This document shows positions 8 through 63,755 of a stretch of 64,000 bases of DNA, in pieces. Each line of letters starts with the position of its first letter. The stretch's first letter is position 1. The stretch comes from Owenia fusiformis. Its lineage: Eukaryota > Annelida > Polychaeta > Sabellida > Oweniidae. The notes beneath the pieces were generated by a model. The model made no database searches, was not told the origin of the DNA, and saw nothing but the letters and a program-made list of their open reading frames with translations. The stretch lies in contig CAIIXF020000006.1 of the NCBI GenBank assembly GCA_903813345.2, positions 13,460,348 to 13,524,347 of the forward strand. The letters run 5' to 3'. The translations under genes were made by a program, and so were the position numbers.

Positions 8-2577
8 ATAACTGTCTTCAAGATGCCGAACCTTGTAAAGTGAACTTCAATGCTGCAACGAGGATAAGCAAATTTATGGGAAGGCAATACCCTATTCAGG
101 TAATCAGATCAATCAAATGAAAAATTTCATTATTCACTATTTATCTTAGGTCCTTTTTATGTCCCCACCACATAGTGTGGGGCCATATTGTCGGCCTAGG
201 CGCGTCCGTCTGTCCGTCCGTACGTCCGTACGTCCGTCCGTCCGTCTGTCCGTACGTCCGGGAATTTTCTCCAAAACCGCTACAGATATCACCTTCAAAT
301 TTTCAGGGATAACTTATGAGTGCATACAGATGTGGATGAAAAAATTTTAACTCAATACCTACTTCCTGTCGGCCATTTTGAAGTCAAATGCTAAAATCCT
401 TGTCTGCAAACTTTAAGAAAAACGGCTTCACAGTTGCTTTTAAAACTTTAACATCTTGTTCAGCTTACTTCATTCTAGATCTGATTAGGTTTAAGACCTG
501 TTAGCTCAGTCATGTCAGCCATTTTGAATGTCTTAAGAAAAGTTAGCGCACGATAATACTTTGTATCATATTGAATGGTGTTTTTGAGTTTTCATACTTT
601 AACTATTTAGTAGCTTTATAAATAATTTCAGATCTACTTTGTTGTAAAAGCCTATGTTATTGTTAACAGTAGTAATATGTGATAATTTTGTAAGAAGAAA
701 TCAGCAAAAACACATAATCACTTTTTTATTGTCGGCCATTTTGGAATTTTTCCATCCTTAAATCTTGTCTGTGAAGTCTTGTCTACGTGTTTTCAGGTGA
801 ACTGTTTGGTGGATCAATTTCAAATTTTCAGTGATGATTCCTAGTATAAAAATCTAGATCTGATTAGTTTTTTGGCATTCTGGATAAATGTCAAGGCAGC
901 CATTTTGGATTTTCCGTCCTAAAATCTTGTCTGTAAAGTCTTGTCTATGCATTTCCAGGTGAACCGTTCTGTAGATCAATTTCAAATTTTTAGGGATGAT
1001 TCTTAGTATGAAAATCTAGATCTGATTAGTTTTTTGGCATTCTGGATAAATGTCAAGGCTGCCATTTTGGATTTTCCGTCTTAAAATCTTGCCTGTAAAG
1101 TCTTGTCTACGCGTTTTTAGGTGAACCGTTTGGTAGATCAATTTCAAATTTTCAGGGATAATTCTTAGTGTGAAAATCTACATCTGATTAGTTTTTTGGC
1201 ATTCTGTGTAAATGTCATAGCAGCCATTTTGGATTTTCTGTCCTAAAATCTTGTCTGTAAAGTCTTGTCTACGCGTTTTCAGGTGAACCATTTGTTAGAT
1301 CAATGTCATATTTTCAGGGATGATTCTTAGTATGAAAATCTAGGAACAGATTAGTTTTTTGACATTCTGGGTAAATGTCAAGGCAGCCATTTTGGATTTT
1401 CCATCCTAAAATCTTGTCTGTAAAGTCTTGTTTACATGTTTTCTAGTTAACTGTGTGACGGATCAATTAAAATTGTGTTGGTAAAGTCTTGTCTACTCAT
1501 TTTCAGGATAACCATTTCATGGGATCACCCATTGGTGGGGACATTTTGTACACATTTGTGTTCTTGTTTTGTTTATATTATATAGTATGATAACATCAAG
1601 TATATTTCCTAGGATATTGACATTCCCACCAAATACTAAATATAGTATTGACTGAATCTGTGATGTTAATGCTACCTTTGTTATGGTCTCTGGTGTTTGG
1701 TGACTGTAACAAATGGCATGTGATGACATTCTCCAAGGTAATGCCTTGTTTTCTTTTACAATAGGCACTGAGTGGAGTACATTACATCAACCATGGGATA
1801 GTTGAAGAAGATCCTTTTAAGATGAAAGTTACCATTGATGAAAATAAAGCATTCATAGATCTTGCAAAACATTCAAGGTAAATGTATGTTTTACTGTTAA
1901 TTGATATCACCATAGCCCATGATATCACGTTATAGTCTCATCTTGACATATAAATTGGCATAGAATTTTGGTACAATATTGATCGCAGTATAGATGTTTT
2001 TGTGTTTTGTGTTTGAATTCTAAATGCAGCTACTTTTCTCAAAGTTGTTTGTTATGTTTTCAGTGAATGCACACAGTCACCAAGAATAAGAGGCTATTAT
2101 ATCCCAAAGCGCAATAGTATTTTTTATCCTGATTATGACAGTAAGTTTTCTTGGAACTAATAACTCTACAATTACTATTTGATCTGATGTCCTAATGAGT
2201 ATATACAATGAATCCAAAGTATACCGACTTAATCAAATTGTATTTTAAATTTCAAATTTCAAATTTTGTGCTTTATGTGACCTTGACTTCATGGTCTATA
2301 CATATACATACATGATATGCATTTCATTCCTTATTAGTCTTGACAACATATATCCCATATGAAGATTGGCTGACCACAGATAGCTCTCCCCCAGGACTAA
2401 TTCACGTATCTTGCTGGGGGGTTGAGGATCCAGACTCTGACTATGAATGCAAAGATGTATTTGTGACTTGGAGTTCCCGCCAGCCAATCATGATGGAAGA
2501 AACTGAAGTATTATTGGATAAAATATCATCTGTTTTCTGTTATGATACTTCAAAAATCAACAAAAAGGATTTAGAAT
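8..2577 (+). CDS. Lipocalin domain 1 (class II)
   Basis: Exons e1 8-99, e2 1765-1877, e3 2064-2140, e4 2338-2577 (174 codons). This is the first domain in the window; e1 opens after a TCCTAG acceptor at the very edge, so an upstream exon must exist. SCR1 is degenerate (SGVHYINHG, no Trp). e4 is the longest of the array (240 nt) and diverged: the Cys loop is VSCWG...YEC, the SCR3 Arg survives as SSRQP, and the C-terminal helix reads FCYDTSK. The intron between e1 and e2 is 1.67 kb and is mostly a tandem-repeat transposon. Class II is assigned from the missing Trp and the lack of a YQCD motif. Confidence 0.72.
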
Positions 2578-5500
2578 GTAAGTCAGTTTGGGATATTAAT
2601 GAATGAAATGGCAATATACAGTCATAAGGATATATAAGTGTCCATCCTCCTAAGCAGGTGTTCAGAATCCGTACCTCCTTCAAGAAAGAAGGTATTCTGG
2701 ATTGATTTTGGAGCCCCGTGTGTACGGAGGATGATAAGTGTCAGACTATAGGAAAATAAAACGACAATTAGAAAGAGAGAACAATTAACCATAAGAACTC
2801 CTCAAGCTAAATGTTTTGTTATTGGTTATACAAGTCCCTCAAAAATAATATGTTGACATTCTTATTACTGTTGCAGCTGTGGAAAAGTGTGAATTTGCTG
2901 ACTTCAACGCAGAAGATATTAAGACATGTGAAGTTTCCAAGATACAAACTCAAAATCATTTAGACATGCAAAAAGTAGGTTTTTCATTTTCATGCTTATT
3001 TTTACAAATTAAGCATTTGTGCCAGGGAAGCATTTTTAAACATTTTTAAAATAGAATACCTAAATAACTTTTTTTGTTTCCAATTATGAAATCATAATTT
3101 CCATAGTTACAACAGTGGATCTATATATTTTATTGGTACAGATGTTGAGATTTGTTTTATCATTTTGTAAACATATCTGAGCTATTTTATTCAATTTCTT
3201 GAATATTGAGTTTTCTTTTTGACTATTCTACTCAGATTACTAGTATTTTATAACATTGGTCTTTTTGTCTAGATGCTAGGGAAGTGGTATGGAGTTGCAA
3301 CATTAAGGTACACCGCAACATCATTTGGTCATTCTGCACTGCTAAACATCTACATGGATGGTGACATACTCAAGATCAAATATACATCATCAATGTAAGT
3401 TCATATTTTATATGTAGCATAAGAACCTAGAGAGTACATGTAGGTGTCACTATATCTTTTGATTTCTTTCATGCTAAATACATACTTTTTTGTTTTTAAT
3501 GATAAAAGCAAACTTTGCCCAATTGCTCATTGCACAATAATTATTAAATGTGAGTATTACATTGTATTGTTCTTGTGTAAATGTGTATCCAGCACAACAT
3601 TCATTTATGATCATATTTTAGAATATATGTAATTAAAATAAACTTTTTATCTTTCAGAAAGGGCCAATGTTTGCCCCCTGTAGTAGCAACACTGAGACCA
3701 GATGGCACTAATGTTGGTTCTTATACAACAGAAGCACTTGGGCAATCCAGTATGTTTACTTTGGGTCATGTGGGTTATCAGAGAAAAAGATCTATAATAA
3801 TTGGTCATCTCAATTTGCATAGTCAAAACGGACTACATAGTTTACCATCATCTAGGAATCAAGATCAGTCCATTCATCAGTTATTATTAACCATTCAACA
3901 TAACAAAGAAATTGTGTTAGAAACTTTAATCAAGATTAACATTACAACCATATACCTACAAATCATTTGAAATTCAAAAGTCTACATTGATATACAATTT
4001 TTCAACAATTATAAACACATGGAATTGTATTCATAAAACATATACATGATTAAAATTATACTACCTGTAACTGATTATTACAATAGGTGTCTTAAAGGTC
4101 ACCTACCTGGATGATGACTACGCAGTGATCTACCAATGTGACAAGATGAACATCTATGGGAACTGTCACCATTCCTCCACCTATGTGAACATCCTTAGTA
4201 GAGAGGACAATATTGATGATGCTACTTTTAAAACATTAGCTGATAAGCTTATTCCATTGTGTATACCCCCTGGTGATCTTCTTCAGACTGAACATGATGG
4301 TAATTATGTCACCACCAGAAGTGGTGACATATTGTCTCAATTTTTTTTTTGGACAGTGTTCAGCAATTTGGCATTTGACAGTCAAGGTTCGGTGGTTGGT
4401 GTTTGCCTGTTGGCGTTCAGCAATTGTAACAAATGGCAAGTGATGACATTTTGGATGTAAATGCCTTGTTAATTATAGTAATAAAATACTTCTGCCCTGA
4501 AATTGCAAGAATGACACCATAACTAATAGGTGACATGAAGTACTGGATTGGTCTATCATATGTTTTAGTTGTTTGTTCTCTGGAAGAGGAATGTAAAGCG
4601 GTGATAAACAATATGAGAACACCTCTGAACTTCAGCCCTGAGCAGGTATAGTAAATATACAGTCACTTTCTATACATAGTGTCACATGATACAACTGCAA
4701 TGAATTTTGATGAAAAGATGATACAGTATATACCACAACACGAATCAAACAATATGTGTATTTTATATACAATGTATCGGTAAGCTTAGCAGATGTTGAC
4801 TTGGAAAAATGATGGTAAGATTATGATTTGGTCTTATGTACTGTTTCAGATATACACTGGTACATATTATAGTACACATACAAAAAGAGGGATGACCTCA
4901 TGGCAGTCTATAAGTACTCACTTTATATTGCTTGGACCTGGAAGGGTTAAGATGTGGACCACTGGAGCAAGGTTGGTTATTTCTTGCTTCGTTCTTTTTG
5001 ACTGCTAACTTTATTAAATGGAAAGAATAAATAAATAATTAGAATAAATTGCAATAAATGTTCAATTACATATATTTGGAGAATAAAAAAGAATAATTTG
5101 AATTGAGATTTTGAAATTATGTTTTGGGCCAACCTTTGAACTGTTGAACAGTGTATATCCGATCATGATATCATTATTATTCACAACAATGACGCAGTAC
5201 AGTACAGTGTCTTTAAAGTAGAAGCCTTAGTGATCAGGGTCTCTCGGAGGGAACTGAGAATTTGAATCGAATGAAATATTTAATTAGCTTAAGGTGGCAG
5301 GCAAGGTATTATGTTAAATAATGGTACATGTTTATGGGCAATTGTTATGGTTTCAGCGGTGGACAATGTCTTAGAATTGTTGATTTTGGAACAATAACTT
5401 ATAATGACACCGAGCCCTACAAATCCATGGCAACAGCAATAAACTGTGAGTTTAAATTTTTCTCATGCCATGTATCTAGTTCCATTATTATCACTAATAC

Positions 5501-56500: not shown

Positions 56501-59500
56501 GGAAAAATCTTTTTATTTAAATATACCATCATTTGTTAAAAAATGATTAAAATAGTGTATCTAAGCCTTGCATAATCTATGTACAGTAAAACGTGTCTAA
56601 GTGGAATACTTTTGGTACCTCTAATTAGTGTTCCACTTGAGAGATGTTCCTCTTATAGAGGTTGCTTAACATTAAGTCAGTCAGTCTTGGGTCTCTGAAA
56701 AGTGTTCCACTTACAGAGGTGTTCCACTTTAGAGGTGTTCCAGCTTACAGGTTTCACTGTATTTTAAGACGTGTGTATATATATTTTCAGTGTTGGAGAG
56801 TGTCTGCAACAAAGAGGAGTTTCACTTCCAATGGCTAGATCAAACTTAATGACCATCAATGGTAATATTTATAATGGTAAATGGTAATCTAATGGTAAGA
56901 GAAGTCTCTGCTATTTCATTGTCACATTGATTATAGTCCACATCATTACAATGAATGTACATATCTTACATGTAGGTAGGAACACCCTTTTTGGCTATAT
57001 GTAATGTTGGATCATCCAATGTTTTTGTCTTTTTGGTATTTGTTTGTATTGATATTTACTTGCGCTCTACATATGCGTGTCATTTGATGTCATTACTAAA
57101 ATGTTCTAAGAATAGAATTGCATATTAAACAAGAAAAGGGTGAAACCTGTCTAAGTGGAACACTTTTGGTATCTCTTAAAAGTATTCCACTCGGTAGATA
57201 TTTCACTCAGAGAGGTTCATTTAACATTAAGTCAGTTGGTCTTTGGACTTAACACTAACAGAGGTGTTCCACTTCTAGAGATGTTCCACTTAAAAGGTTT
57301 CACTGTATTTTGTTTATATTTCAGGCTATTACCAGATTCTGGACATCTCCCCTGACAATTCCAGTATTCTCTTCTTTGGCTGTAACAACTACATTGATCT
57401 TGGCACACCTTGCGCTCCTGAATCTTTCTACCTAGAATACCTTACTAAGACTCCTCCATTAAGCGATGATGTTAAGAAACAGTTTGATTTAACAGTTGAA
57501 AGGTCTGGTTGTGCTTCAGCTGCTGATGTACGTCCTATGCATATAGATTATGATGGTAAAGTACTTATGCTTTGAGACCATGTTAATACTGTGTTATTTA
57601 AAAAAAAGTATTGAGTTCATGTTTTATTTAAATATTAAAAGAGTGATATGACATTAAAAGTATGTTACCATACAGAGTGGGAAAGAAATATTACATGTAG
57701 TAATGATCTTGTGGTTTGGGATTGTGATAGGATACCAGAATGGTGGACATTGTTTCTTTTTTTGTCTTTTTGGTTTATGTGGGTTTCTTAGGGAGTAGTT
57801 TTTATTGTTACACATTTTTTTTTCTAATTAGCTAAAAATAGAATAGTACATCTGATCAATACCATGGTGATTATTTTGGTTGCTTACCTTCATGTACCAC
57901 TAACAATAACTATCTTACCATTTCTTGATCTCACCTTAGTTGGGGGATAATTCATGGGTGGTAAATGGGGGAGGGATGGCGGGCGAGATTCACTCAGATA
58001 ACAACCTGCTTTCTCCTTGTATCAAGAAATAAATGGAAAATGGCGTTCTTCTGCGCATGTGCGTTGACCTACATTCAACTCTACTTCCTAGTAACCGATT
58101 TGTTTACATCAAATTCTGACAATCGCAACAACAATTAACTACTCCCATAAAACACACATAAAACCAATTAATTTTCAATTAATTGACATTTGTATGCTAG
58201 ATCATAATTTACAATATCGTAAGTGTGTTCACGTACCTGGCTGTGCCCTTACTCGTAGATATTTTTCTTCTTTATCTGCATTAATATTGTATGATCTGTA
58301 AAATGAAGCCCTCTGATTGGTTAGATCTTGTGCTGCACCAATCTGTAGTGCTACTGAAATTGTCCCCATCTCTGGAGCAATATAGAAAATATTGGTAAGA
58401 ATCTCAGTAGCAATACAGAGAATACAGAGTATTTCCTATACTAGGGATTATCTCCCTAAGTAAAATGTATTTGCCTAAGATCACACAATAAAAATAGAAT
58501 GATTTGAAGTGCAACAGGATAAATTCTGCTCTCAATATTCTCAACTTAGCCTCTTGCCAATACAGGATTTCTTGAGCAGAATATATCCAGTATTGCACTT
58601 CAAATCATTCAATAACTTATAACACTGCTTAGTCTCTCTTCTTGTGCTTACTATATACAGTAAAACCTGTCTAATCCGAACGCCACTGGGACCAGTCAAA
58701 TTGTTAAGATTAGCAGGTGTTTGACATAACAGGTGTTTTCATAGTATGGGAGATAGCATTGAGACGTAGAAAAATTGTTCACATTACATTGAGATTTGAG
58801 TATAGCAGGTATTAGGAAATACAGGTTTTACTGCAATTGCAATATTGTTGTATGTATTAGTTCCATGGCTTTTATTTCAGGCCAGTGCCTTCCAGACCGA
58901 AGTAAGCCAATCAACCAGCCTTATACTGAGACTTGCCAGGTGAAAGATATCAAAACTCAAGTTGACTTAGATAAAAAACTAGTAAGTTCATTCATATTGC
59001 AGTTGCCCAATCTCATTAACTGTCAACTTTTCTGCAACATCTTCATTAACAGGTGGCACAACTTCAAGAGTAGATGGTAAATAAAAACGGGATATTTTGC
59101 ACATTGTGGACTACCACTGGGTTCAAACTAAGAACATAACTTACTTTTTAGTTCAAAGGTCGGTGGTATGGAAGAGTTCATATCTCTGACACAAGTGAAT
59201 CATCATTTGGGTCATCATCAACAGCTTATGTTGATGTACTCGAGGATGGCAACATAACAATAACATACACCTCTGTAATGTGAGTATTTTGTTTAATAAC
59301 AGAGTAAATACATGTACACGATAGCCATTCTATTGAGTTGGTGTAAATGTCAAAGCATTTAATAAATACAGAATATCACATCATTTTGAGTGATATCATT
59401 TTTATCGCCGAGTTGATATCAAATATCAACACGAGTGAGCGAAGCGAATGAGTGTTGATATTTGATATCTACGAGGCGATAAAATGATATCACGAGAAAT

Positions 59501-62500
59501 TATGTGATATTGGGTTTATCCCATGATTACGATCACCTTGTGATATAGTTCGTCATAAATACAATTTTTTAATCGTTATTTAGCAGCCTTCTAATCAAAT
59601 TATATACACAATCGTAATTTAGTACACCAATGAAACTTAAAGAGAATAAATTAACGGACCTATTTTCTAAAAAGAGAATAAATTATCTGACCTGATTTCC
59701 AACAATATTGTGGCGCGAAATGCAAATTAGATATCACACAGATATGCGTGAGATAAACGATATCACACGCATATGAGTTTGATAAACGATTTTCTGGAAA
59801 ATATCACAAGGATTTCAATGATATCAGAAATATCAATAGCTGTTATTGTACAGATAACACATTAATCGTGGGATAAAAATGTTTATCACATCTCAAACTA
59901 GAATGATGGACTCTAATTGGTCAGATCACGTCACACTCTCCATCGTGTAATAATGCTATAATATTCTTTATCTTGTTCGAAGCTTTTTATTAGATCATGA
60001 TATTTTGAAATGTTGAGTAAGAATTTTGGAATATTGTTATGACACTTGAGGTTTGATTAATAATTTAGATGTAAGGATTATATAGATACTAATTGGTTGT
60101 TTTACTCAGTGATGGAGAATGTCAAGAACCTGTTAAAGCCATGTTGACCCCAACAGAAGACCCTGGTACTTTCCTTGGATATGCTCTTGGTGTAACAAGT
60201 AAGTCAATTTTAAACATTTGGCTGAATAGTTCACTGTTATTCTTTGTCTTATTGTAATCAACAGAGTGAATACTTTGCACTTATGTCACAATTGTCTTTC
60301 CAATCATCTGTTATGTCTAATTTATGTATGTATATCTAAAGTAGACACATATACAATTGTACACCTATTAATTTCCTTTTTTCTAGGCATAATAAAAATT
60401 ATCTTTACGAATTATGAGATTGCCTTGGTGTACCAGTGTGACAGTGTGTTGGAAACTGGAGAATGCAGTGAAAAGCATCTTCATCTTGATGTTCTTAGTC
60501 GAACCACATCAGATAAAATAAACACCATCCTAATAGCTGAGCTGAATATATACTTACAGAAATACTGTATTGATTCTACGCGATTGAAAAAAACAGACCA
60601 GGAAGGTAACTGTGAAATTATTGAATGTGAGATAATGTTTTAGGATGTTGGGAGGTTCTTTCCTTTCGAGTTCATTTTCTGGATTTCACATTTTGATTTA
60701 GATTCTGTACATAATCAATGATACTGTGAAGGGCAGCATTGGAATGAAACATGAATTATAAAGTAACCCCTATAAATGATACCAAGTAGAACTCATCTTG
60801 AACGTGGTTACATTACATACAGTAAAACCTGTAAAGTGGGACACCTCCTTTAGTGTAACACTTAAAATTATCAACTAATTAATGTCAAATAAACCTCTGT
60901 AAATGGAACACCTCTCTAGTGCAACATTAGGCCTATTTTAAAATATCAAATATATAAAATATCAAAATTGTTCCTCTTACACAGGTCAATGTACTTAAAT
61001 ATTTTTATATATATGGTTTTAAAATTGGTTGTGCTTTTCTTCTTAATGTGTTTTTGTTCTCCGTTTTCCCCTTTCATAGCACTTGTTCTTATATATTTAG
61101 GTAGATGTAATGTGTATTCAAGCCTCAACAGAACATGTAACGTTGACGAAGTGGCAGTGCAGCAACAGTTTAATGCTTCTAAAGTAAGGACAAAATATTT
61201 GTTGTGGATAATGGAATGATGGCCCAAATTCGTCAATCCTCAATTTTTATTACAATTAGATAGCATTCATGTTAAAGTGATAAATTCTGGATAAAAGAAT
61301 AACAACTATTCCAGCATATTTCTATGTTTCAGTTCTATGGTAAATGGTATGATATCGCTCGAACAAGGTACACTGAGGGAAATACATACGAGCAGGGTAT
61401 AGGTGTCTTCCAACCAGGAGGTAGTGATGATGAAATGTATATGTACTATGTAGGCCTAGATAAGTAAGTACCAGTTCAGTGATAGAGAGGTTCAGAAGAG
61501 AACCTGCATTTGAGCATGTAATATTTTGACCCCAGTAGATTACTATTTCGCTCTCAATTCACCTCTCCATGGGCCTAATTACAATTATTTTCCATATATC
61601 ATTACACTCAATCGGCCAAGAACTAATTCATAGTTCTACACATTCGCATACAAGTTCTTTAAAAAACATGTTCCTAAACCTTCCTAATTACTACATGTAC
61701 ATATAACTAGATTATGAGTTGTGTGGGTCTAATTGTCTGTATGTTAAAGTTAAGCAATTGCAAAACACTATTTTATTTCATCCAAAAGTCCATGTGCCAC
61801 ATAGTGGTGATGATTGGTCATTCCTACAGATTCCCAGCAGACATAGAATAAGTTAATTTTATAAAATAATATGATAATTGGAACAATTTGGTGAAATACG
61901 TGTATACTGTATATACCCCATGATAATGTACGCTTTTACTGTAGAGCTGGAGTTTGTATAGATCCTGTGAAAGGACTTCTGAAATTCAGAGACCCCTCCA
62001 AGCAAAATGGTGACTTCATGATATACATAGATATTGCTGTAGATCAATGGAAAACAGAAATAAGTAAGCCATAGATTAATAATGTGTATGATACTAATGC
62101 TATTTCAAAGGATAATCCATTTGGGAAAATATGTAAATATGGTTAATGATGAAAAAAGAAAATCACATTCAGGCCTATAATAGCTAAACAGATATATTGT
62201 CATTACTCCTAGTCAAAGTACCTCCAAAGTGAAATAAGTTTTAATTTCGCAAATTTTGAGAAAACATGATTTCATGGCCACTAAGTTTTGCGGATTTCAC
62301 AAGTTAAGATCCCATTATTCTCTGAATCCTAATGGGCTTTCAATTAGCCCATGGAATCCTCAAGCTCTCTAAATAAGGTTACCTCATGTACAGTAAGTAA
62401 ACCGAACGTATGTCATATTTGGATAAGACAATTACTACTAGATCTTGGTCAATGGTACGTTGCACCTTAACCTCTATTACATCGTCATTTTCAATTTATT

Positions 62501-63755
62501 TAATCTAATAAGCCACTGTAACAGACATTGTTGCTTAGTATCTCATTTATTGCCTAATAACACTCGACAAATGTACAAGTCACAAAATACAATGGAGTCA
62601 CAAGTAATTTCAAAAATCCCCGGGGATTTAATTGACAATTTCGCATGAAAAATAACAGGAGTATAAGCATATTTTATTCGTGTTTCAGATTATAATTATA
62701 AAGTTGTGTACACTGACTACCATAATGCTGTTATCTACTCTTGTTACAATCAGGCCTCTGATGGGACATGCAAACGAGAATTCCTGCAGGTAACTCAAAA
62801 TTAATTCAATCAGATTGACATAGCCTAACCAGTCTACACACACAACCCATGTTGTGAAGATGTATGAATGAATTAAATTTATGAATGTATGTATGTATGA
62901 ATTGAAAAAGTTGAGTGAATGTACAGTATATTAGTGAGAGTGCAAAAACTATTAATAAGAAAGCATTAATGGCAGTATTTAAAACACGAAAACTCCCAAA
63001 GTCCTAATTAACAAAACGCAGTGATCTACCTAGCACTTTCACATGACACCTCTTAATTCTAATTTTTGATAGGGTGGCATGTTGCAGGAGAAAACACTGA
63101 CCAGTTTAATGCAAAATGTGAATGATTTATAATTTCTTTTTCAGGTGGATGTCCTCAGCAGATCACCTAGTATACCATATCATAAACAGCTAGATTTGGC
63201 GAAAATCATAGATGGCCTTTGTATAGATGTAGAAGATATCATCTTCACAAAACATGGAGGTTACTATTTTTATTAGCTAATTACTAACTTTTATTTGAGC
63301 AATAAAAAATGATAGGCCATTCAATATGGTGAAAATCAGCTCGAGTTGGAAAGAATGATGTAAAAGCAGTATACGAAGGTGTGTGCATTTTATTTGTACT
63401 GACATTCTGTTCAAGGAGAGTGGAATTTCGCCCATTATTATTTATTCCAATTCAAACATAAAACATGTAGAAAACATTGTTTAACTTGTCATTCTGTCAT
63501 CAAAATTTGTAATTGGCCATCCCCAGACAGAGCCCAAAGTGGATTCATGGATGTGGATAATGCACGGTTCTTCATGTATGGAGAATTAAAGAATGGCTAC
63601 GCTGCATACTGATTGGTTTAGAAACTCAATTTGAGAATGTCATGTTTGAACAAGGAGTAAAGAATTCTGTATTTGATCATTGCATGCTTTAATTCCATGA
63701 TACTTCTCTATTTTCAGATACTTGCCAGCTGCCACAAGGATTCAATGGCTACTAA
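8..63755 (+). CDS. Giant multi-lipocalin gene, 3' part (at least 20 domains)
   Basis: One gene built from 84 hand-read exons, partial at the left edge and ending in TAA at 63753-63755. Known family features: lipocalins carry SCR1 (GxW), SCR2 (TDY) and SCR3 (R); all three recur here, best as GKWYDIAR, YTDY and VDVLSR in the last domain. The N-terminal Cys, the FDxxK before the GxWY and the Cys after the C-terminal helix match the layout of apolipoprotein D-type lipocalins. Exon lengths, phases (1-0-2-1 per domain) and GT/AG borders agree across all domains with no internal stop, which is strong evidence that it is expressed as one chain. No membrane segment was seen, so secretion is inferred, with the signal peptide lying upstream. 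Exons of each domain are listed in the domain entries as e1-e4. Ligand and function are unknown; each domain would form an eight-stranded barrel, giving a string of binding pockets. Confidence 0.88.
159..1544 (+). mobile_element. Tandem-repeat transposon with 12-bp terminal inverted repeats
   Basis: Ends are ATGTCCCCACCA (159-170) and its inverse TGGTGGGGACAT (1533-1544). A CCGT-rich simple repeat follows the left end (206-260). The body is about five copies of a roughly 163-bp unit containing GCCATTTTGGATTTTCC and TTCAAATTTTCAGGGATGAT. No coding capacity. The layout, short inverted ends around a tandem core, resembles non-autonomous elements described in bivalves; family not assigned. Confidence 0.65.
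2635..2745. repeat. Short imperfect hairpin
   Basis: CCATCCTCCTAAGC and a downstream GTACGGAGGATG, with AAGAAAGAAGGTATTCTG opposite CAGAATCCGTACCTCCTTC, form a partial hairpin. Likely a small decayed inverted-repeat element. Confidence 0.3.
2877..4299 (+). CDS. Lipocalin domain 2 (class I)
   Basis: Exons e1 2877-2974, e2 3273-3394, e3 3658-3749, e4 4087-4299 (175 codons). SCR1 is intact (LGKWYGVATL) and is followed by SFGHSAL and KYTSS, the strand B-C region typical of class I here. e3 has KGQCLPPV and ends at an unusual GTATGT donor inside what looks like a longer open frame. e4 has DDDYAVIYQCD (SCR2), YGNC, VNILSRED (SCR3 with Arg) and LCIPPGDL. The family predicts a barrel opening formed around the SCR loops; nothing in the sequence names the ligand. 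Confidence 0.85.
4569..5896 (+). CDS. Lipocalin domain 3 (class II)
   Basis: Exons e1 4569-4645, e2 4850-4971, e3 5357-5445, e4 5675-5896 (170 codons). SCR1 is YTGTYYSTHT: the Gly and aromatic remain but Trp is replaced by Tyr, which defines class II. e3 carries SGGQCL. e4 has ILFGCAGN, a KACPDE Cys, FVEYYSRSR (SCR3 Arg kept) and LLCTKPNEM. The class II hallmark in e4 is a GC followed about ten residues later by (A/P)CP. The introns hold no recognisable element. Confidence 0.82.
6114..7606 (+). CDS. Lipocalin domain 4 (class I)
   Basis: Exons e1 6114-6202, e2 6630-6757, e3 7093-7184, e4 7388-7606 (176 codons). Canonical SCR1 FSGTWYGIATL; e2 ends in SYTSS with a GTTAGT donor. e3 has HGNCLPS. 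e4 has WTDYQLSVLYQCD, DGLC, VTILSRNPG and SLCVDTNDV, so all three conserved lipocalin regions are present. The intron after e1 carries a short interspersed repeat (6223-6420). Confidence 0.87.
6223..6420. repeat. Interspersed repeat with CAGGCCCGTAGCC end
   Basis: Begins CAGGCCCGTAGCCAGG and contains a poly-C run and CTTTTCAAGTGATTTTGG. A related copy in opposite or rearranged orientation lies at 52600-52712, which has the same TTTTCAAGTGATTTTGG and ends GGCTACGGGCCTGG. Two copies in one gene support a mobile origin. Confidence 0.45.
7734..9302 (+). CDS. Lipocalin domain 5 (class II)
   Basis: Exons e1 7734-7810, e2 8395-8537, e3 8846-8925, e4 9084-9302 (173 codons). SCR1 is reduced to MKGYYVTHTKG. 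e2 is longer than average (143 nt), with a basic insert. e4 has MIYICRGPLDGDGNC and then VEYYSLDT, where the SCR3 Arg is replaced by Leu, followed by TCTDPTQM. e1 contains RRPQRS between two cysteines, the only minimal R-x-x-R proprotein-convertase-like site I noticed in the junctions I read. A 31-bp tandem array begins seven bases after the e1 donor. Confidence 0.8.
7818..8096 (+). repeat. 31-bp tandem array beside a splice donor (about 9 copies)
   Basis: Unit GCAGATATTGTATTTAATCA plus CTTGTCTGCAA, repeated nine times with few changes. The array starts seven bases after the donor of domain 5 e1, and units contain an acceptor-like CTCCTAG or CTGCAAG. Confidence 0.85.
9573..11831 (+). CDS. Lipocalin domain 6 (class I)
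   Basis: Exons e1 9573-9655, e2 9856-9980, e3 10462-10553, e4 11610-11831 (174 codons). e1 ends IKTQQDFDNYK. SCR1 is AAGLWYGVGGL, then SFGSSAVV. e4 has DWATIVYQCD in place of the usual TDY start, DGQC, FNVITRKYP and VCLSFQDI. The intron between e3 and e4 contains an 890-bp mariner-like element, and the intron between e2 and e3 a tRNA-like segment. Confidence 0.85.
9992..10065 (+). repeat. tRNA-like segment (probable SINE head)
   Basis: 74 bases with an A-box-like TGACTCAATGGCAGCATG and a good B-box GGTTCAAATCC at the expected distance, and ends CTAAAGT/ACTTAGG that pair at six of seven positions. The anticodon arm is abnormal (long loop), so a tRNA-derived SINE or pseudogene is more likely than a working tRNA. 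Confidence 0.4.
10571..11460 (+). mobile_element. Mariner-like DNA transposon, decayed
   Basis: 890 bp flanked by TA on both sides (10569-10570, 11461-11462). Terminal inverted repeats of about 55 bp start CAGGGTG(A/G)TCAAAAAAACGG. The interior still encodes a transposase-like fragment near 11066-11142 reading NEWPPHSPDMAP then WGYPKDRV, the usual region before the last catalytic Asp of mariner transposases, but the frame is otherwise broken. Confidence 0.75.
12230..13549 (+). CDS. Lipocalin domain 7 (class I)
   Basis: Exons e1 12230-12312, e2 12457-12578, e3 12971-13062, e4 13331-13549 (172 codons). SCR1 FEGIWYGVATL; VNITS in e2 is a potential N-glycosylation site. e3 has EGRCLPP. e4 has YTDYTVALIYQCD, DGLC, LNVIHRDPN (Arg kept, Ser replaced by His) and MCVDVSQM. 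It follows another class I domain directly, breaking the I/II alternation. Confidence 0.86.
13706..13822. repeat. Short palindromic element
   Basis: AGCACTATTCTAACAGTGCT and AACAGAAAATTAAAACAG on the left face ACTGTTTTATTTTTCTGTT and AGCACTGTATAGTGCT on the right. Hairpin-forming, non-coding, MITE-like. Confidence 0.55.
14002..15753 (+). CDS. Lipocalin domain 8 (class II, degenerate)
   Basis: Exons e1 14002-14081, e2 14395-14507, e3 14699-14787, e4 15532-15753 (168 codons). This is the most degenerate start in the array: e2 opens VRGLQTKTHF, with neither Trp nor Tyr of SCR1, and is short (113 nt). e3 has DGICQD. e4 has FAILSCVKYDDVVNTGVC, then VVMEYISDKM where the SCR3 Arg is absent, then ACVDPSTI. 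Borders and phases are normal, so it looks like a translated but structurally diverged domain, not a pseudo-exon set. Confidence 0.78.
15080..15490. repeat. Degenerate tandem repeat
   Basis: Two diverged copies of a roughly 130-bp unit containing AAGATGGC(C/A)(A/G)CTGAATTT and AAAATGG(C/T)TG(G/C)CATTT, after a CACACCC/GGGTGT-type hairpin near 15095-15120. Probably a remnant of a repeat like that at 30533-32056. Confidence 0.4.
15974..17384 (+). CDS. Lipocalin domain 9 (class I, e4 split)
   Basis: Exons e1 15974-16077, e2 16289-16413, e3 16729-16820, e4a 16963-17080, e4b 17281-17384 (181 codons). e1 is long (104 nt). SCR1 FSGTWYGLATS. e4a carries TTDYNSLALIYQCD, DGQC and VDILT, and splits in phase 2 inside the SCR3 Arg codon (AG|G). 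e4b continues NRSLEL and VCVKEEDL. The extra intron interrupts the SCR3 motif exactly, unlike most domains here. Confidence 0.82.
17987..19934 (+). CDS. Lipocalin domain 10 (class II, e4 split)
   Basis: Exons e1 17987-18072, e2 18473-18609, e3 19127-19212, e4a 19560-19683, e4b 19825-19934 (181 codons). SCR1 FQGKWFITHIL keeps the Trp. e2 is long (137 nt) and ends ATGAR. e3 has NGVCQPK; its last 24 bases plus the donor are the seed of a 34-bp tandem repeat. e4a has AYTCLTETEQDKPC and ends within VEYR (phase 2); e4b starts SRESILP and has LCTDPANL. The extra intron lies two codons upstream of the equivalent one in domain 9. Confidence 0.8.
18101..18184. repeat. Near-perfect 84-bp palindrome
   Basis: CCCGAATGACATATTTTATC followed by TTAGTTTGCAAA is mirrored by TTTGCAAACTTAGATAAAAT then ATGTCATTCGGG. 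Typical of a small hairpin MITE. Confidence 0.7.
18186..18330. mobile_element. Short MITE (AAACCTGTCTAAT family)
   Basis: Left AAACCTGTCTAATCTGAA and right ATATACAGGTTTTATT are roughly inverted. Same family as the elements at 56584-56760, 57138-57310, 58659-58830 and 60819-60930. Confidence 0.5.
19189..19324 (+). repeat. 34-bp tandem repeat across an exon-intron border (4 copies)
   Basis: Four units, the first being the coding end of domain 10 e3 plus its donor (TTTTTCCAGTTAGATCTGG, CAATA|GTAAGT). The three intronic units each keep TTTTTCCAG, which looks like an acceptor, and GTAAGT, a donor. Confidence 0.88.
20266..21993 (+). CDS. Lipocalin domain 11 (class I)
   Basis: Exons e1 20266-20342, e2 20574-20698, e3 21044-21135, e4 21772-21993 (172 codons). 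SCR1 LQGIWYGASSL, then SFGSSSVL. e3 has ESKCLIPV; its acceptor and first bases are duplicated 77 bp upstream. e4 has YTDYDNVLTIYQCD, DGTC, LNMLSRTRN and MCINIKDV. The intron before e4 includes a strong palindrome near 21411-21510. Confidence 0.86.
20940..21094 (+). repeat. 77-bp direct duplication of a splice acceptor
   Basis: TGTTTTAGGG(A/G) with the start of domain 11 e3 occurs twice, offset 77 bp (AG at 20965-20966 and 21042-21043). Only the second leads into the full open e3; the first runs into a TATG-rich microsatellite and a stop. Confidence 0.8.
21411..21510. repeat. Palindromic repeat
   Basis: TAATGTCATTTCTAAGGGCG, then ATATAGTGAAATATTGGACC, is mirrored around GGCCAAAGGCC by GGTCCAATATTTCACTATAT and AGAAATGACGTTATTA. 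MITE-like hairpin. Confidence 0.65.
22133..23238 (+). CDS. Lipocalin domain 12 (class II, e2/e3 fused)
   Basis: Exons e1 22133-22200, e2+e3 fused 22545-22761, e4 23014-23238 (170 codons). This is the only domain in which e2 and e3 form one exon: MYSGVKYTTHI (SCR1 without Trp) runs through VTGAQNGRCLP with no intron. e1 (VECPLEKTC) ends at a GC donor (GAG|GCAAGT). e4 has IVYGCSGNMARDKPC, VEYFSNTRS (SCR3 Arg shifted or lost) and LCEDPRFI. Intron loss is the simplest reading because all other domains keep this intron. Confidence 0.82.
23611..24591. mobile_element. Fold-back mariner derivative with two inverted transposase ends
   Basis: 981 bp between TA dinucleotides with 28-bp ends starting CAGGGTGACCGGAAAAAAAG. 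The arms match each other for about 370 bp in inverted orientation. Each arm encodes the C-terminal part of a mariner-type transposase (on the right arm PPDFFLWGNLKDNVYQNNP and then ETIADLK, 24233-24330). The element therefore looks like an inverted duplication of a mariner 3' end. Confidence 0.75.
24681..33153 (+). CDS. Lipocalin domain 13 (class I), split by a 7.4-kb intron
   Basis: Exons e1 24681-24772, e2 32209-32333, e3 32577-32668, e4 32935-33153 (176 codons). e1 ends KDIDMEK; e2 begins MSGLWYGLAYH, then SFGEASV. The e1-e2 intron is 7.4 kb and contains an antisense TRIM gene, a palindrome and a tandem array. e3 has NGECLTP. e4 has YTNYEIVMMYQCD, DGTC, VDVLARDPK and LCIDIRDV, and is closely similar in layout to domains 16 and 19. 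Confidence 0.84.
25756..27648 (-). CDS. Intronless TRIM-family RING E3 ligase
   Basis: A 630-residue protein encoded without introns, antisense in the 7.4-kb intron of the lipocalin gene. RING finger C15-C59 has the full C3HC4 set (C15, C18, C30, H32, C35, C38, C56, C59). B-box 1 spans about 100-140 and B-box 2 about 166-205. A coiled coil follows to about 340, then a C-terminal region from about 390 with repeated blade-like stretches (VTAAGDYVVTGG, NSVGELVVYDS, GEGHLIVGDHYG), resembling an NHL or similar beta-propeller. TRIM proteins are ubiquitin ligases, and families with this layout are expanded in bivalves; substrate unknown. The start is the ATG at 27646-27648 (AAAATGG context); a longer frame upstream would need a GTG. 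A possible poly(A) signal (AATAAA on this strand) is at 25441-25446. Confidence 0.9.
   Translation of the reverse strand: MASYTGDCYTEALTCVLCKDILTEPRTLPCLHQYCLKCLQSLVQKEDGIKGGSLKCPECSNEYPVPEKGVEGYTISPTIKLLLDNYMDINPTQNIHGPNCNVCSETDNVNVPAKIKCLDCNKRFCKRCRKTHDSVLPHHKMFNLTGDSASDFQTAVQSIKECTVFCHQHPNKPLEIFCKVDEAVLCQLCYTLNHSGHPAEDIKHTAAKNMKPIGTVITQGKGLVDIYQQAIEEAQMYTNQQEKNVENISAIINNDMNNLMQVIRTKYNSYIEQMVKEKETNIKQVLSYIDNLKLHKATIEGHVKKYCTIEEHGPPAEIAGLAKQVENQMQKWSQQPDVALDFKMDIRFKDGVIRDDNLIFGKVLIKKETVTLCEPTLLKKEILHPSNIEGLIVTAAGDYVVTGGGTSNAAIYGTECQLKKNMGNEFVDATLTKDDYLAFIDGSNIIQLYESDGTYKHDTECTGLSELTCITSNSVGELVVYDSTRKEVYHVDPINGETTAESKMGMWKYLCAITCNSKDVIIVCGKTSDDELCIKGIDRNGGNVFEYSEQDWGERFSSYLTYLSTDNKDNIFVTDTDYVRIHMLNHKGNYIRCITQNVDMEYPGAATIDGEGHLIVGDHYGSIYIIKYRE
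28480..28625 (+). promoter_or_regulatory. Candidate promoter-like segment in intron
   Basis: In one short stretch: an inverted CCAAT box (ATTGG, 28523), a perfect CRE (TGACGTCA, 28547-28554), a TATA-like CATATATAG (28566-28574) and, 40 bases on, a good splice donor (GCG|GTGAGT, 28615). The order fits plus-strand transcription into domain 13 e2; the CRE and CCAAT are also readable toward the TRIM gene. The flank is locally richer in CG dinucleotides. Inference only. Confidence 0.25.
29778..30290. repeat. 513-bp palindromic element
   Basis: Arms begin TTTACGATAATTGAT and end ATCAATTATCGTAAA; inner matched blocks include CCAAAGCCTGCGCC/GGCGCAGGCTTTGG and GGTTATCATGACCAT/ATGGTCATGATAACC. Non-coding. 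Confidence 0.7.
30533..32056 (+). repeat. 146-bp tandem array (about 10 copies)
   Basis: Units contain GAAGTTCTAGAGCTGATTAA, GGCCATCTTGCATTCTGG and ATTCCAGGAAAACCACTT. Both ends carry AGGTACGATATTGT (30547 and 32051), so the array may be the core of an element. Local open frames are by-products of the period. Confidence 0.8.
33487..36481 (+). CDS. Lipocalin domain 14 (class II) with a possible 51-nt extra exon
   Basis: Exons e1 33487-33557, e2 34216-34379, e3 34823-34914, possible extra exon 35741-35791, e4 36257-36481 (184 codons, or 201 with the extra exon). e1 ends at a second GC donor (CTG|GCAAGT). SCR1 IYSGRWYTTHA; e2 is the longest in the array (164 nt). e4 has MIWYGCSKTVSVDEPC, VEYASREPS and LCILAEWM. 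The extra exon is phase 1-1, open, and flanked by TTTTAG and GTAAGT, so it could be constitutive or alternative. Confidence 0.8.
35741..35791 (+). CDS. Candidate 51-nt cassette exon
   Basis: A symmetric phase 1-1 exon candidate between e3 and e4 of domain 14. It would add the acidic 17-residue segment RMLEEYMGMDKDDSDVI between strands D and E of the barrel, where no other domain has an insert. The acceptor (ATATTTTAG) and donor (TGTAAGT) are good. Coding status is inferred from open frame and splice sites only. Confidence 0.45.
36897..40577 (+). CDS. Lipocalin domain 15 (class II)
   Basis: Exons e1 36897-36958, e2 37398-37519, e3 37856-37941, e4 40347-40577 (167 codons). e1 is the shortest (62 nt) and nearly copies that of domain 12 (VECPLEKTCT). 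SCR1 YDGLYYATHIL. e3 has NGDCMNQ. e4 opens YYQIVYVTPD, has IEIGCFASIDRDSPC, then IQYQTKQPP with the SCR3 Arg replaced by Lys, then GCLSASDM. It pairs with domain 18, which has the same YYQI start and the same lost Arg. Confidence 0.82.
38235..40248. mobile_element. Outer inverted-repeat element containing a nested one
   Basis: Left GGTTAAGATTAGCGTAAA and right TTTACGCTAATCTTAAAC with further TACCTATCC/GGTATAGG matches. It encloses a second inverted-repeat element (38409-39693). No transposase seen. Confidence 0.6.
38409..39693. mobile_element. Inner element rich in GCGCGCAGTTTG motifs
   Basis: Ends match as inverted repeats (GATGCCCATGCCAAGC type). About ten copies of a GCGCGCAGTTTG-like motif in both orientations lie mainly near the ends, for example 38438, 38457, 38480, 38844, 39237, 39616 and 39640. 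Local GC content differs sharply from the surroundings. Confidence 0.6.
40760..53021 (+). CDS. Lipocalin domain 16 (class I), spread over 12 kb
   Basis: Exons e1 40760-40860, e2 45467-45588, e3 48960-49048, e4 52800-53021 (178 codons). e1 contains DPSKPYNQP and MKTQ. e2 opens LEGVWYGVGTL, has SFGSSATAM and ends DYTSAM; this 3' end is the founder of the 66-bp minisatellite filling the next intron. e3 has KNRCQAPV. e4 has NDATLVYQCD, SGEC, LDVLTRKQN and LCINASEI. All three introns are swollen: a 4.1-kb fold-back element, the minisatellite, and a broken retrotransposon. Confidence 0.84.
41083..45207. mobile_element. 4.1-kb fold-back element
   Basis: Arms of about 215 bp (41083-41300 and 44990-45207) are inverted copies, with matches such as CTTTGCATTTTTGGATACC and GGTGGGCGTGGCACTTTAC. 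Further degenerate subterminal copies of the GGGCGTGGCACT and ATTGGAATTATGTAATCA units run inward (41560-41950 and 43880-44900). No long coding frame. Confidence 0.65.
43384..43450 (+). repeat. tRNA-like A-box segment
   Basis: GTGTAGCTCAGCGGTAGCGC is a strong tRNA D-arm/A-box match, followed by a possible ACCT/AGGT anticodon stem. The B-box is poor, so this is probably a decayed tRNA or a SINE head inside the fold-back element. Confidence 0.4.
45533..48828 (+). repeat. 66-bp minisatellite made of an exon end plus its 5' splice site (about 50 copies)
   Basis: The unit is 52 bases matching the 3' end of domain 16 e2 (coding AMVHTASDAMYIDYTSAM) followed by GTAAGTATTGACAG. The first copy is the real exon end; about 49 more fill the intron. 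Most keep an intact GTAAGT; at least five have GTTAGT. The last copy ends GTAAAC. One shortened unit lies near 45855 and a 5-bp insertion near 46852. Confidence 0.95.
49803..51113 (+). mobile_element. Second copy of the 162-bp tandem-repeat transposon
   Basis: Seven to eight units of the same 162-bp repeat as at 159-1544, ending with the same GGTGGGGACAT. The left end starts at the position equivalent to 702 of the first copy (AGCAAAAAC(A/T)CATAATCAC), so the left inverted repeat and CCGT tract are missing. It sits inside the retrotransposon. Confidence 0.75.
51216..51560. mobile_element. Palindromic element inserted in the retrotransposon
   Basis: Arms TGGTGATCCACTCGATTA, GGTTACCAAAAC on the left and GTTTTGGTAACC, TAATCGAGTGGATCACCA on the right, with inner matches around TGTCGGAACGTCGAAGG. 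The retrotransposon reading frame resumes on the other side. Confidence 0.7.
52600..52712. repeat. Interspersed repeat, second copy
   Basis: Shares TTTTCAAGTGATTTTGG and the GGCTACGGGCCTGG end with the repeat at 6223-6420. Confidence 0.4.
53155..54590 (+). CDS. Lipocalin domain 17 (class II)
   Basis: Exons e1 53155-53225, e2 53429-53571, e3 54001-54089, e4 54372-54590 (174 codons). e1 shares the SPxPxVFNY ending with domain 14. SCR1 IYSGQWYITHS with Trp retained. e3 ends at an atypical GTTGAG donor. e4 has VIWYGCTGQIDDPC, IYTSREPS and LCADPDWM. Close similarity to domain 14 in all four exons supports a block duplication. Confidence 0.82.
53690..53830 (+). repeat. Interspersed repeat shared with 38060-38200
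   Basis: Both copies have the order AAAAGT(A/G)CA(A/C)CCAGTCA, then GGAAAATAA(A/T)CCCCAA, then AAAGAAAC(A/T)GT and TACCC(A/C)CCCCC(A/C)CCA. Diverged; family not recognised. Confidence 0.5.
54822..55673. mobile_element. 852-bp fold-back element with about 400-bp arms
   Basis: Left GTTAACTCACCCTATGCAGA and right TCTGCATAGGGTGTAAC. The arms are almost identical in inverted orientation through GGAAATATTGGGTG and on to the centre near 55245. A pair of mirror-image 63-codon frames lies in the arms and is not a gene. Confidence 0.85.
55793..56050. repeat. Inverted-repeat element
   Basis: Left TATCCAGGC, ATGAGCTCATGTTAGAAGCG and GCCTTGAGAG; right CTCTCAAGG, CGCTTCTAACAGAAGCTCAT and GCCTGGATA. The right end is 54 bases before domain 18 e1. 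Confidence 0.6.
56104..57555 (+). CDS. Lipocalin domain 18 (class II)
   Basis: Exons e1 56104-56171, e2 56350-56489, e3 56791-56861, e4 57325-57555 (170 codons). SCR1 LKGVWYVAYTV has the Trp-Tyr restored relative to domain 15. e3 is the shortest (71 nt). e4 opens YYQILDISPD, has ILFFGCNNYIDLGTPC, LEYLTKTPP (Lys at the SCR3 Arg) and GCASAADV. The introns before e3 and e4 each carry a short inverted-repeat element of the same family. Confidence 0.8.
56584..56760. mobile_element. Short MITE (CAGTAAAAC ends)
   Basis: CAGTAAAACGTGTCTAAGTG at the left and CAGGTTTCACTG at the right; interior repeats of GTTCCACTT and AGAGGTGTTCC. The ends resemble those of pogo/Tigger-type elements (inference). Confidence 0.55.
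57138..57312. mobile_element. Short MITE, same family
   Basis: GGTGAAACCTGTCTAAGTGG at the left and AAAAGGTTTCACTGTA at the right, with the same GTTCCACTT interior as the copy at 56584. Confidence 0.55.
58497..58612. repeat. Short hairpin element
   Basis: GAATGATTTGAAGTGCAACA, then GGATAAATTCTGCT, is mirrored by AGCAGAATATATCC, then AGTATTGCACTTCAAATCAT. Confidence 0.5.
58659..58830. mobile_element. Short MITE (CAGTAAAACCTGTCTAAT)
   Basis: CAGTAAAACCTGTCTAATCC at the left and ACAGGTTTTACTG at the right are inverted repeats; same family as 18186-18330. Confidence 0.6.
58881..60605 (+). CDS. Lipocalin domain 19 (class I)
   Basis: Exons e1 58881-58981, e2 59152-59279, e3 60110-60198, e4 60387-60605 (179 codons). 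e1 contains DRSKPINQP and IKTQVDLD, almost a copy of domain 16 e1. SCR1 FKGRWYGRVHI, then SFGSSSTAY and TYTSVM. e3 has DGECQEPV. e4 has FTNYEIALVYQCD, TGEC, LDVLSRTTS and YCIDSTRL. Confidence 0.86.
59391..59493. repeat. Hairpin around AGCGAAGCGAA
   Basis: GATATCATTTTTATCGCC and GATATCAAATATCAACAC on the left are mirrored by GTGTTGATATTTGATATC and GGCGATAAAATGATATC. Further TGATATC-rich sequence continues to about 59880 and may be the same element. Confidence 0.6.
60819..60930. mobile_element. Short MITE, partial
   Basis: CAGTAAAACCTGTAAAGTGG at the left, then AACACCTCTCTAGTGCAACA; right end not clear. Confidence 0.4.
61101..63755 (+). CDS. Lipocalin domain 20 (terminal, most canonical) and C-terminal tail
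   Basis: Exons e1 61101-61183, e2 61333-61463, e3 61945-62063, e4a 62689-62789, e4b 63145-63259, terminal exon 63718-63755. SCR1 FYGKWYDIART is the most typical lipocalin motif of the array. e3 is longest (119 nt). e4a has YTDYHNAVIYSC (SCR2) and DGTC, and ends in phase 0 before VDVLSRSPS in e4b; then LCIDVEDI. The last exon codes DTCQLPQGFNGY and TAA; its Cys occupies the place that the next domain's first Cys takes elsewhere, as in apolipoprotein D-type proteins. This fixes the end of the gene. Confidence 0.86.

Follow-up and report, generated by a model that had tools for sequence, protein, structure and literature searches.

Can a single gene string together 20 or more lipocalin domains, and what would such a chain be for? 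The question is raised by a stretch of 64,000 nucleotides from the annelid Owenia fusiformis (assembly GCA_903813345.2, contig CAIIXF020000006.1, forward-strand positions 13,460,348 to 13,524,347), referred to as a whole as the window. A first-pass annotation, made from the letters alone, had placed a single gene of 84 exons encoding at least 20 tandem lipocalin domains at positions 8 to 63755. An annotated protein, profile comparisons and structure models of two domains support this reading of one gene with at least 20 such domains in the window, which holds the 3' part of the gene; the gene start lies upstream. Most lipocalins are single-pocket carriers, and many-domain chains are known from moths.

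One reading frame and its annotated protein

A search for coding stretches and seeds preceded the splice-chain search of the window. Without any phase rule, the first pass recovered 62 exons, divided among three pieces, and suggested a cassette of four exons with phases 1 to 0, 0 to 2, 2 to 1 and 1 to 1. In later passes the cassette phases, length limits and motif bonuses were imposed, GC donors and a fused exon were then permitted, and two exons were corrected manually with the help of splice sites and the unconstrained pass. The constrained search yielded 82 exons forming 20 domains (Table 1) in a single open frame without an in-frame stop, with a repeat unit of about 175 residues in the spliced translation. 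The chain scored 1273 on the forward strand, whereas the reverse complement reached 77 and eight random sequences 10-30; without the motif bonuses these values were 855, 126 and 19-64, respectively. Because the phases were imposed on the search, the phase regularity is partly built in and is by itself no independent evidence; both ends of 40 of the 62 unconstrained exons coincide with the final chain.

A protein search with the spliced translation returned an unnamed protein of O. fusiformis with 5,687 residues (P0001), so that the source is an annelid and not a mollusc, as had been supposed. Letter for letter, 74 of the 82 exon peptides are present in P0001. Of the remaining eight, one lies at the open window end, three differ at an edge (the first of domain 14, the second of domain 17 and the third of domain 18), one is the final exon, and the other three are the first three of domain 5. 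Identity to P0001 is 97-100% per domain, with lower values for domain 14 (88%) and domain 5 (96% over 77 residues). P0001 spans the joints between domains, and separate genes were therefore rejected. Position 8 follows an AG at 6-7 and fits P0001 as an exon start. It corresponds to about residue 2268 of P0001; the gene is thus larger than the window that was thought to contain it, and the predicted length of over 3,500 residues is borne out by the 5,687 residues of P0001. At the other end, 63145-63259 joined to 63718-63755 reads ...KHGDTCQLPQGFNGY followed by a stop, the same as the end of P0001, whose C-terminus DTCQLPQGFNGY is the last exon of the first-pass annotation; the real stop ending at 63755 is retained. 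The 84 exons become 83 here, including the terminal exon, with one extra exon near 35743 in P0001 relative to this chain.

A stop at 63274-63276 was ruled out as the gene end, because the C-terminus of P0001 and the sixth cysteine described below both favour 63718-63755. An AATAAA lies at 63301, shortly 3' of the alternative stop at 63274, and the gene may also have a shorter isoform that ends at 63276.

Of the 34 matches of the domain profile to P0001, 28 cover more than 110 profile positions; two short matches may be one split domain, which implies about 33 domains in the whole protein. The precomputed Pfam list of P0001 consists of Lipocalin, Lipocalin_2 and Triabin, and nothing else. Judged by eye, its N-terminus has a hydrophobic stretch, and the giant protein is probably secreted. 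The Owenia genome paper gives RNA sequencing support for 99.29% of the filtered transcripts (PMC9977687), and we infer that P0001 is among these.

Lipocalin identity of the domains

The best match of a profile built from the 20 window domains was to RBP4 (2.1e-15), and the bacterial lipocalin Blc model of NCBIfam was matched by 4 of the 20 domains (best 2.9e-5). Structure models of domains 17 and 19 give an eight-stranded barrel with a short N-terminal helix and a C-terminal alpha helix. Their likeness to RBP, ApoD and other ligand carriers speaks for the fold and not for the function. Profile search and single-domain structure prediction, both proposed with the first-pass annotation, have thus returned lipocalins, with weak profile matches for single domains. 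With 20 domains in the window, the chain departs from the usual form of one lipocalin domain per chain.

An alignment of 23 domains shows five invariant cysteines and a sixth in at least 90% of the rows (one row ended before it). Disulphide pairs of RBP4 provide the reference for this six-cysteine pattern; the spacing is RBP4-like and five of the cysteines align to those of RBP4. The sixth is encoded by exon 1 of the following domain (by the terminal exon in the case of domain 20), so that the boundaries of the folded unit are shifted by a few residues relative to those of the exon cassette. A YxCxxxxxDGTC stretch is common to the tandem domains and RBP4-type lipocalins. The repeated motifs claimed earlier do occur, though not in every domain: by reading of the sequences, 14 domains have GxW where the first strand begins, and six are without it, some having GxY.

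Domain classes and linkers

From the tree (see below) and the sequences, nine domains were assigned here to class A (2, 4, 6, 7, 9, 11, 13, 16 and 19) and eight to class B (3, 5, 10, 12, 14, 15, 17 and 18). A TH pair follows the first strand in seven of the eight class B domains (all but 18), and also in domain 8; no class A domain has it. This suggests that the chain mixes at least two types of pocket along its length. Identity to domain 19 is 30-50% for the other class A domains and 16-20% for three class B domains. Linkers of 5-16 residues separate the last cysteine of one barrel from the first cysteine of the following one, and 2 of 20 contain a basic pair; the furin-type site RX[KR]R is absent from all of P0001. 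Both features favour an uncut chain of beads on a string; the earlier statement that the protein is not cut into single domains is favoured to this extent.

Relatives and evolutionary history

Protein searches returned tandem relatives from Pomacea (LOC112575321, 11 domain matches), Batillaria (BaRGS_00039014, 11) and Haliotis cracherodii (3,267 amino acids, 15 tandem domain matches), and a JGI metagenome protein (P0018), 3,416 residues long and from a 12,194-base contig, with 18 domain matches, two of which are probably one split domain. The gastropod proteins add Ig domains, the Haliotis one also a VWA domain, and P0018 adds an antistasin domain. A tree was made from 81 domains, namely 80 of the 89 domain matches (short ones were left out) and one window domain. 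The last Owenia domain groups with the last domain of P0018 (99/94) and with two gastropod domain sets (97/87), and an internal Owenia domain pairs with an internal one of P0018 (98/88). The starred branches force at least three changes of the Owenia label and at least two of the gastropod label; the grouping of the domains does not follow species alone, which suggests a multi-domain ancestor. The tree has many long branches and weak deep joins. Owenia-only clades of seven class B domains (99/93) and nine class A domains (96/83) point to much lineage-specific growth, and the pairs 14/17 (100/99), 15/18 (98/97) and, less firmly, 16/19 (96/38) to a duplicated triplet.

Intron positions were not kept as proof of descent from the chordate lipocalin gene. 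ApoD has four coding exons (PMC8530192).

Possible function and its alternatives

We consider it fairly probable that one Owenia gene encodes a giant, probably secreted chain of about 33 RBP4-like barrels, a high-capacity, mixed-specificity carrier or scavenger of lipophilic molecules grown by cassette duplication. The chain would stay whole outside the cell; each barrel would hold one small lipophilic molecule, and the two main pocket classes with their diverged sequences would provide high capacity and mixed specificity. Owenia and these snails feed on algae or detritus. The leading guess for the ligand is dietary or endogenous tetrapyrroles, by analogy with the 252-kDa chlorophyllide-binding lipocalin-like protein of the silkworm, with carotenoids, retinoids or fatty acids as alternatives. 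The gene would have grown by duplication of whole domain cassettes, mostly of four exons with phase-1 borders, and such borders keep the frame when a domain is gained, lost or skipped.

Several observations weigh against this reading. Single domains are remote: the 20 domains gave eight family matches against Pfam at E 0.05, and among the 10 shown in detail one passes the family cut-off, domain 19 (Lipocalin, 1.4e-5), while domains 2 (Lipocalin_2, 7.5e-4), 10 (Nitrophorin, 1.2e-3) and 11 (Lipocalin, 1.5e-3) stay below it. Domain 1 barely matches the non-Owenia domain profile (E 0.1). Three exons of domain 5 (within 7734-8925) are absent from P0001 though open, so that isoforms or annotation errors exist; skipping these exons keeps the frame and may be alternative splicing. 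The Owenia gene is known here from DNA sequence and gene models alone. In published data, the Pomacea relative was measured in the ampulla, an aortic expansion, and was up after nematode exposure (log2 1.70, p 0.021); a protein with Ig domains in a circulatory organ gives no pointer to gut tetrapyrroles. No insect tandem lipocalin was among the relatives returned by the searches, which required shared 5-residue words.

The repeat unit of about 175 residues would also suit a polyprotein cut between barrels into single lipocalins, like the nematode polyprotein allergens, and processing is common among secreted tandem proteins. With no RX[KR]R motif in P0001, a basic pair in so few of the short linkers, and units as diverged as domain 19 is from the other domains, we regard such cutting as quite unlikely. 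The barrels may instead be extracellular modules for proteins or surfaces, in matrix, tube, mucus or immunity, with small ligands of minor importance. The Ig and VWA domains of the gastropod relatives fit this idea, as do the connective, haemolymph-holding organ in which the Pomacea relative was measured and its rise there, and two papers list lipocalin domains among snail and oyster shell matrix proteins, not as tandem proteins (PMC9365450, PMC10543319). It seems rather unlikely, given that the Pfam list of P0001 holds lipocalin-type families only and that the modelled domains resemble the carriers RBP and ApoD in fold, if not in function. False chaining of neighbouring separate lipocalin genes might be suspected because P0001 is a gene model, probably of the same assembly. 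However, the chain has no in-frame stop, P0001 spans the joints, the long P0018 (a protein record only) has 18 domain matches on its short contig, and the design is common to three gastropod gene models, which makes an artefact of assembly or annotation scarcely credible.

Beyond the proposal of a giant lipophile carrier in Owenia, the chain could belong to an ancient family of giant tandem lipocalins in Spiralia, among which no larger member has yet been found; the family would predate the annelid-mollusc split and have arisen independently of, or before, the insect polycalins. Its phase-1 cassettes would let lineages add, lose or skip pockets in frame, so that the protein could act as an adjustable sponge for several ligands in body fluid, gut or mucus. 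We hold this wider proposal to be evenly balanced. An annelid chain of about 33 domains with gastropod relatives would reveal either a much older design of far wider distribution or repeated origins. Its diverged pockets, a natural series within a single molecule, would allow one to test whether tandem duplication widens the ligand range and would offer scaffolds for multivalent binders. If the rise in Pomacea is general, spiralian defence or transport may include these proteins as an overlooked component.

Exon organization and intronic repeats

Two of the 81 introns in the model are GC-AG introns (donors 22200 and 33557), each after the first exon of a class B domain; at 33557 P0001 uses another exon end. 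The intron between exons 2 and 3 is absent from domain 12 (22545-22761), and an extra intron interrupts the last exon of domains 9, 10 and 20, at two different phases.

Table 1. Exons of the tandem lipocalin gene in window coordinates.
Feature	Exons	Strand	Basis and remarks
Domain 1, divergent	8-99, 1765-1877, 2064-2140, 2338-2577	+	Splice chain; P0001 2268-2441, 100%; gene continues upstream of window
Domain 2, class A	2877-2974, 3273-3394, 3658-3749, 4087-4299	+	Splice chain, P0001 match
Domain 3, class B	4569-4645, 4850-4971, 5357-5445, 5675-5896	+	Splice chain, P0001, non-Owenia profile
Domain 4, class A	6114-6202, 6630-6757, 7093-7184, 7388-7606	+	Splice chain, P0001, non-Owenia profile
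Domain 5, class B-like	7734-7810, 8395-8537, 8846-8925, 9084-9302	+	Splice chain, non-Owenia profile; P0001 has last exon only
Domain 6, class A	9573-9655, 9856-9980, 10462-10553, 11610-11831	+	Splice chain, P0001, non-Owenia profile
Domain 7, class A	12230-12312, 12457-12578, 12971-13062, 13331-13549	+	Splice chain, P0001, non-Owenia profile
Domain 8, groups weakly with gastropod domains	14002-14081, 14395-14507, 14699-14787, 15532-15753	+	Splice chain, P0001, tree, non-Owenia profile
Domain 9, class A, split last exon	15974-16077, 16289-16413, 16729-16820, 16963-17080, 17287-17384	+	Splice chain, P0001 (last exon begins a few bases earlier there)
Domain 10, class B, split last exon	17987-18072, 18473-18609, 19127-19212, 19560-19683, 19825-19934	+	Splice chain, P0001
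Domain 11, class A	20266-20342, 20574-20698, 21044-21135, 21772-21993	+	Splice chain, P0001
Domain 12, class B	22133-22200 (GC donor), 22545-22761 (exons 2+3 fused), 23014-23238	+	Splice chain, P0001
Domain 13, class A	24681-24772, 32209-32333, 32577-32668, 32935-33153	+	Splice chain, P0001, non-Owenia profile
Domain 14, class B, first of duplicated triplet	33487-33557 (GC donor), 34216-34379, 34823-34914, 36257-36481	+	Splice chain, P0001, tree
Domain 15, class B, second of triplet	36897-36958, 37398-37519, 37856-37941, 40347-40577	+	Splice chain, P0001, tree
Domain 16, class A, third of triplet	40760-40860, 45467-45588, 48960-49048, 52800-53021	+	Splice chain, P0001, tree
Domain 17, class B, first of second triplet	53155-53225, 53429-53577, 54001-54089, 54372-54590	+	Splice chain, P0001, tree; structure modelled from P0001 version
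Domain 18, class B	56104-56171, 56350-56489, 56791-56876, 57325-57555	+	Splice chain, P0001, tree
Domain 19, class A	58881-58981, 59152-59279, 60110-60198, 60387-60605	+	Splice chain, P0001; structure modelled
Domain 20, C-terminal	61101-61183, 61333-61463, 61945-62063, 62689-62789, 63145-63259	+	Splice chain, P0001, tree, non-Owenia profile
Terminal exon, last cysteine and stop (DTCQLPQGFNGY, stop)	63718-63755	+	P0001 end

About 50 copies of a 66-base-pair (bp) repeat, corresponding to the 3' part of domain 16 exon 2 and its 5' splice site, fill 45533-48825; since the repeat carries the donor, dozens of look-alike donor sites stand right behind the real one. At 19187-19322 a 34-bp repeat in four copies covers the end of domain 10 exon 3 and its donor, a second exon-end amplification in the gene. 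Satellite-like arrays occupy introns at 735-1443, 49841-50945 and 30600-32022 (162 bp twice, 145/289 bp), and an intronic, transposon-like inverted repeat of 418 bp (95% complementary, 15-bp spacer) lies at 54819-55669.

Comparison with known systems

Like the lepidopteran polycalin or P252 of Bombyx mori and Helicoverpa armigera (PMC4985599), a large extracellular chain, the probably secreted Owenia protein carries numerous lipocalin domains. That paper names a "Multidomain lipocalin" and a "Polycalin" of H. armigera as Cry1Ac-binding and cites the 252-kDa chlorophyllide-binding lipocalin-like protein of Bombyx; two-domain forms are thus not the largest exceptions to the single-domain rule, as had been stated. 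Polycalin is an insect midgut protein with reported binding of chlorophyllide and Cry toxin (PMC4985599), whereas the Owenia chain is from an annelid and has about 33 domains. With this precedent, giant tandem lipocalins are already known in principle. By description, and not by alignment of the sequences, the Owenia protein is set apart by its phylum, about twice the domain number, RBP4-like cysteines, and gastropod relatives with Ig and, in Haliotis, VWA domains. Polycalin has about 15 domains and a membrane anchor, whereas P0001 has no hydrophobic C-terminal tail by eye.

RBP4, apolipoprotein D and sandercyanin share the barrel fold and cysteine spacing and are the best profile and structure matches. 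Crustacyanin, the lobster shell carotenoprotein, is assembled from separate single-domain subunits, unlike the single chain of Owenia. The saxitoxin- and tetrodotoxin-binding proteins of pufferfish have two tandem lipocalin domains in one secreted chain, and are set apart on this description from the roughly 33 domains of Owenia. Nematode polyprotein allergens consist of tandem lipid-binding units of helical fold with furin-type cleavage sites between units; the Owenia protein is similar in its tandem units on one chain and differs in its fold and in the absence of such sites. RBP4 and ApoD have one domain and one pocket (ApoD is called monodomain in PMC8530192), whereas about 33 are joined in Owenia.

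Lipocalin transcripts of the Glycera venom gland are reported, not as tandem proteins, in PMC4202326, and the one review of lipocalin evolution consulted treats chordates. No tandem lipocalins of annelids or molluscs were found in the open-access literature searched, which also included PMC8533556, PMC4532494, PMC8420045 and PMC10674444. The uncharacterised Pomacea, Batillaria and Haliotis proteins share the domain family and a related last-region domain with the Owenia chain, which has more domains, while Ig domains, and VWA in Haliotis, are found in the gastropods. What is new here is an annelid chain of about 33 lipocalin domains, its sequences public but unnamed, built on a tandem-lipocalin principle known from moths.
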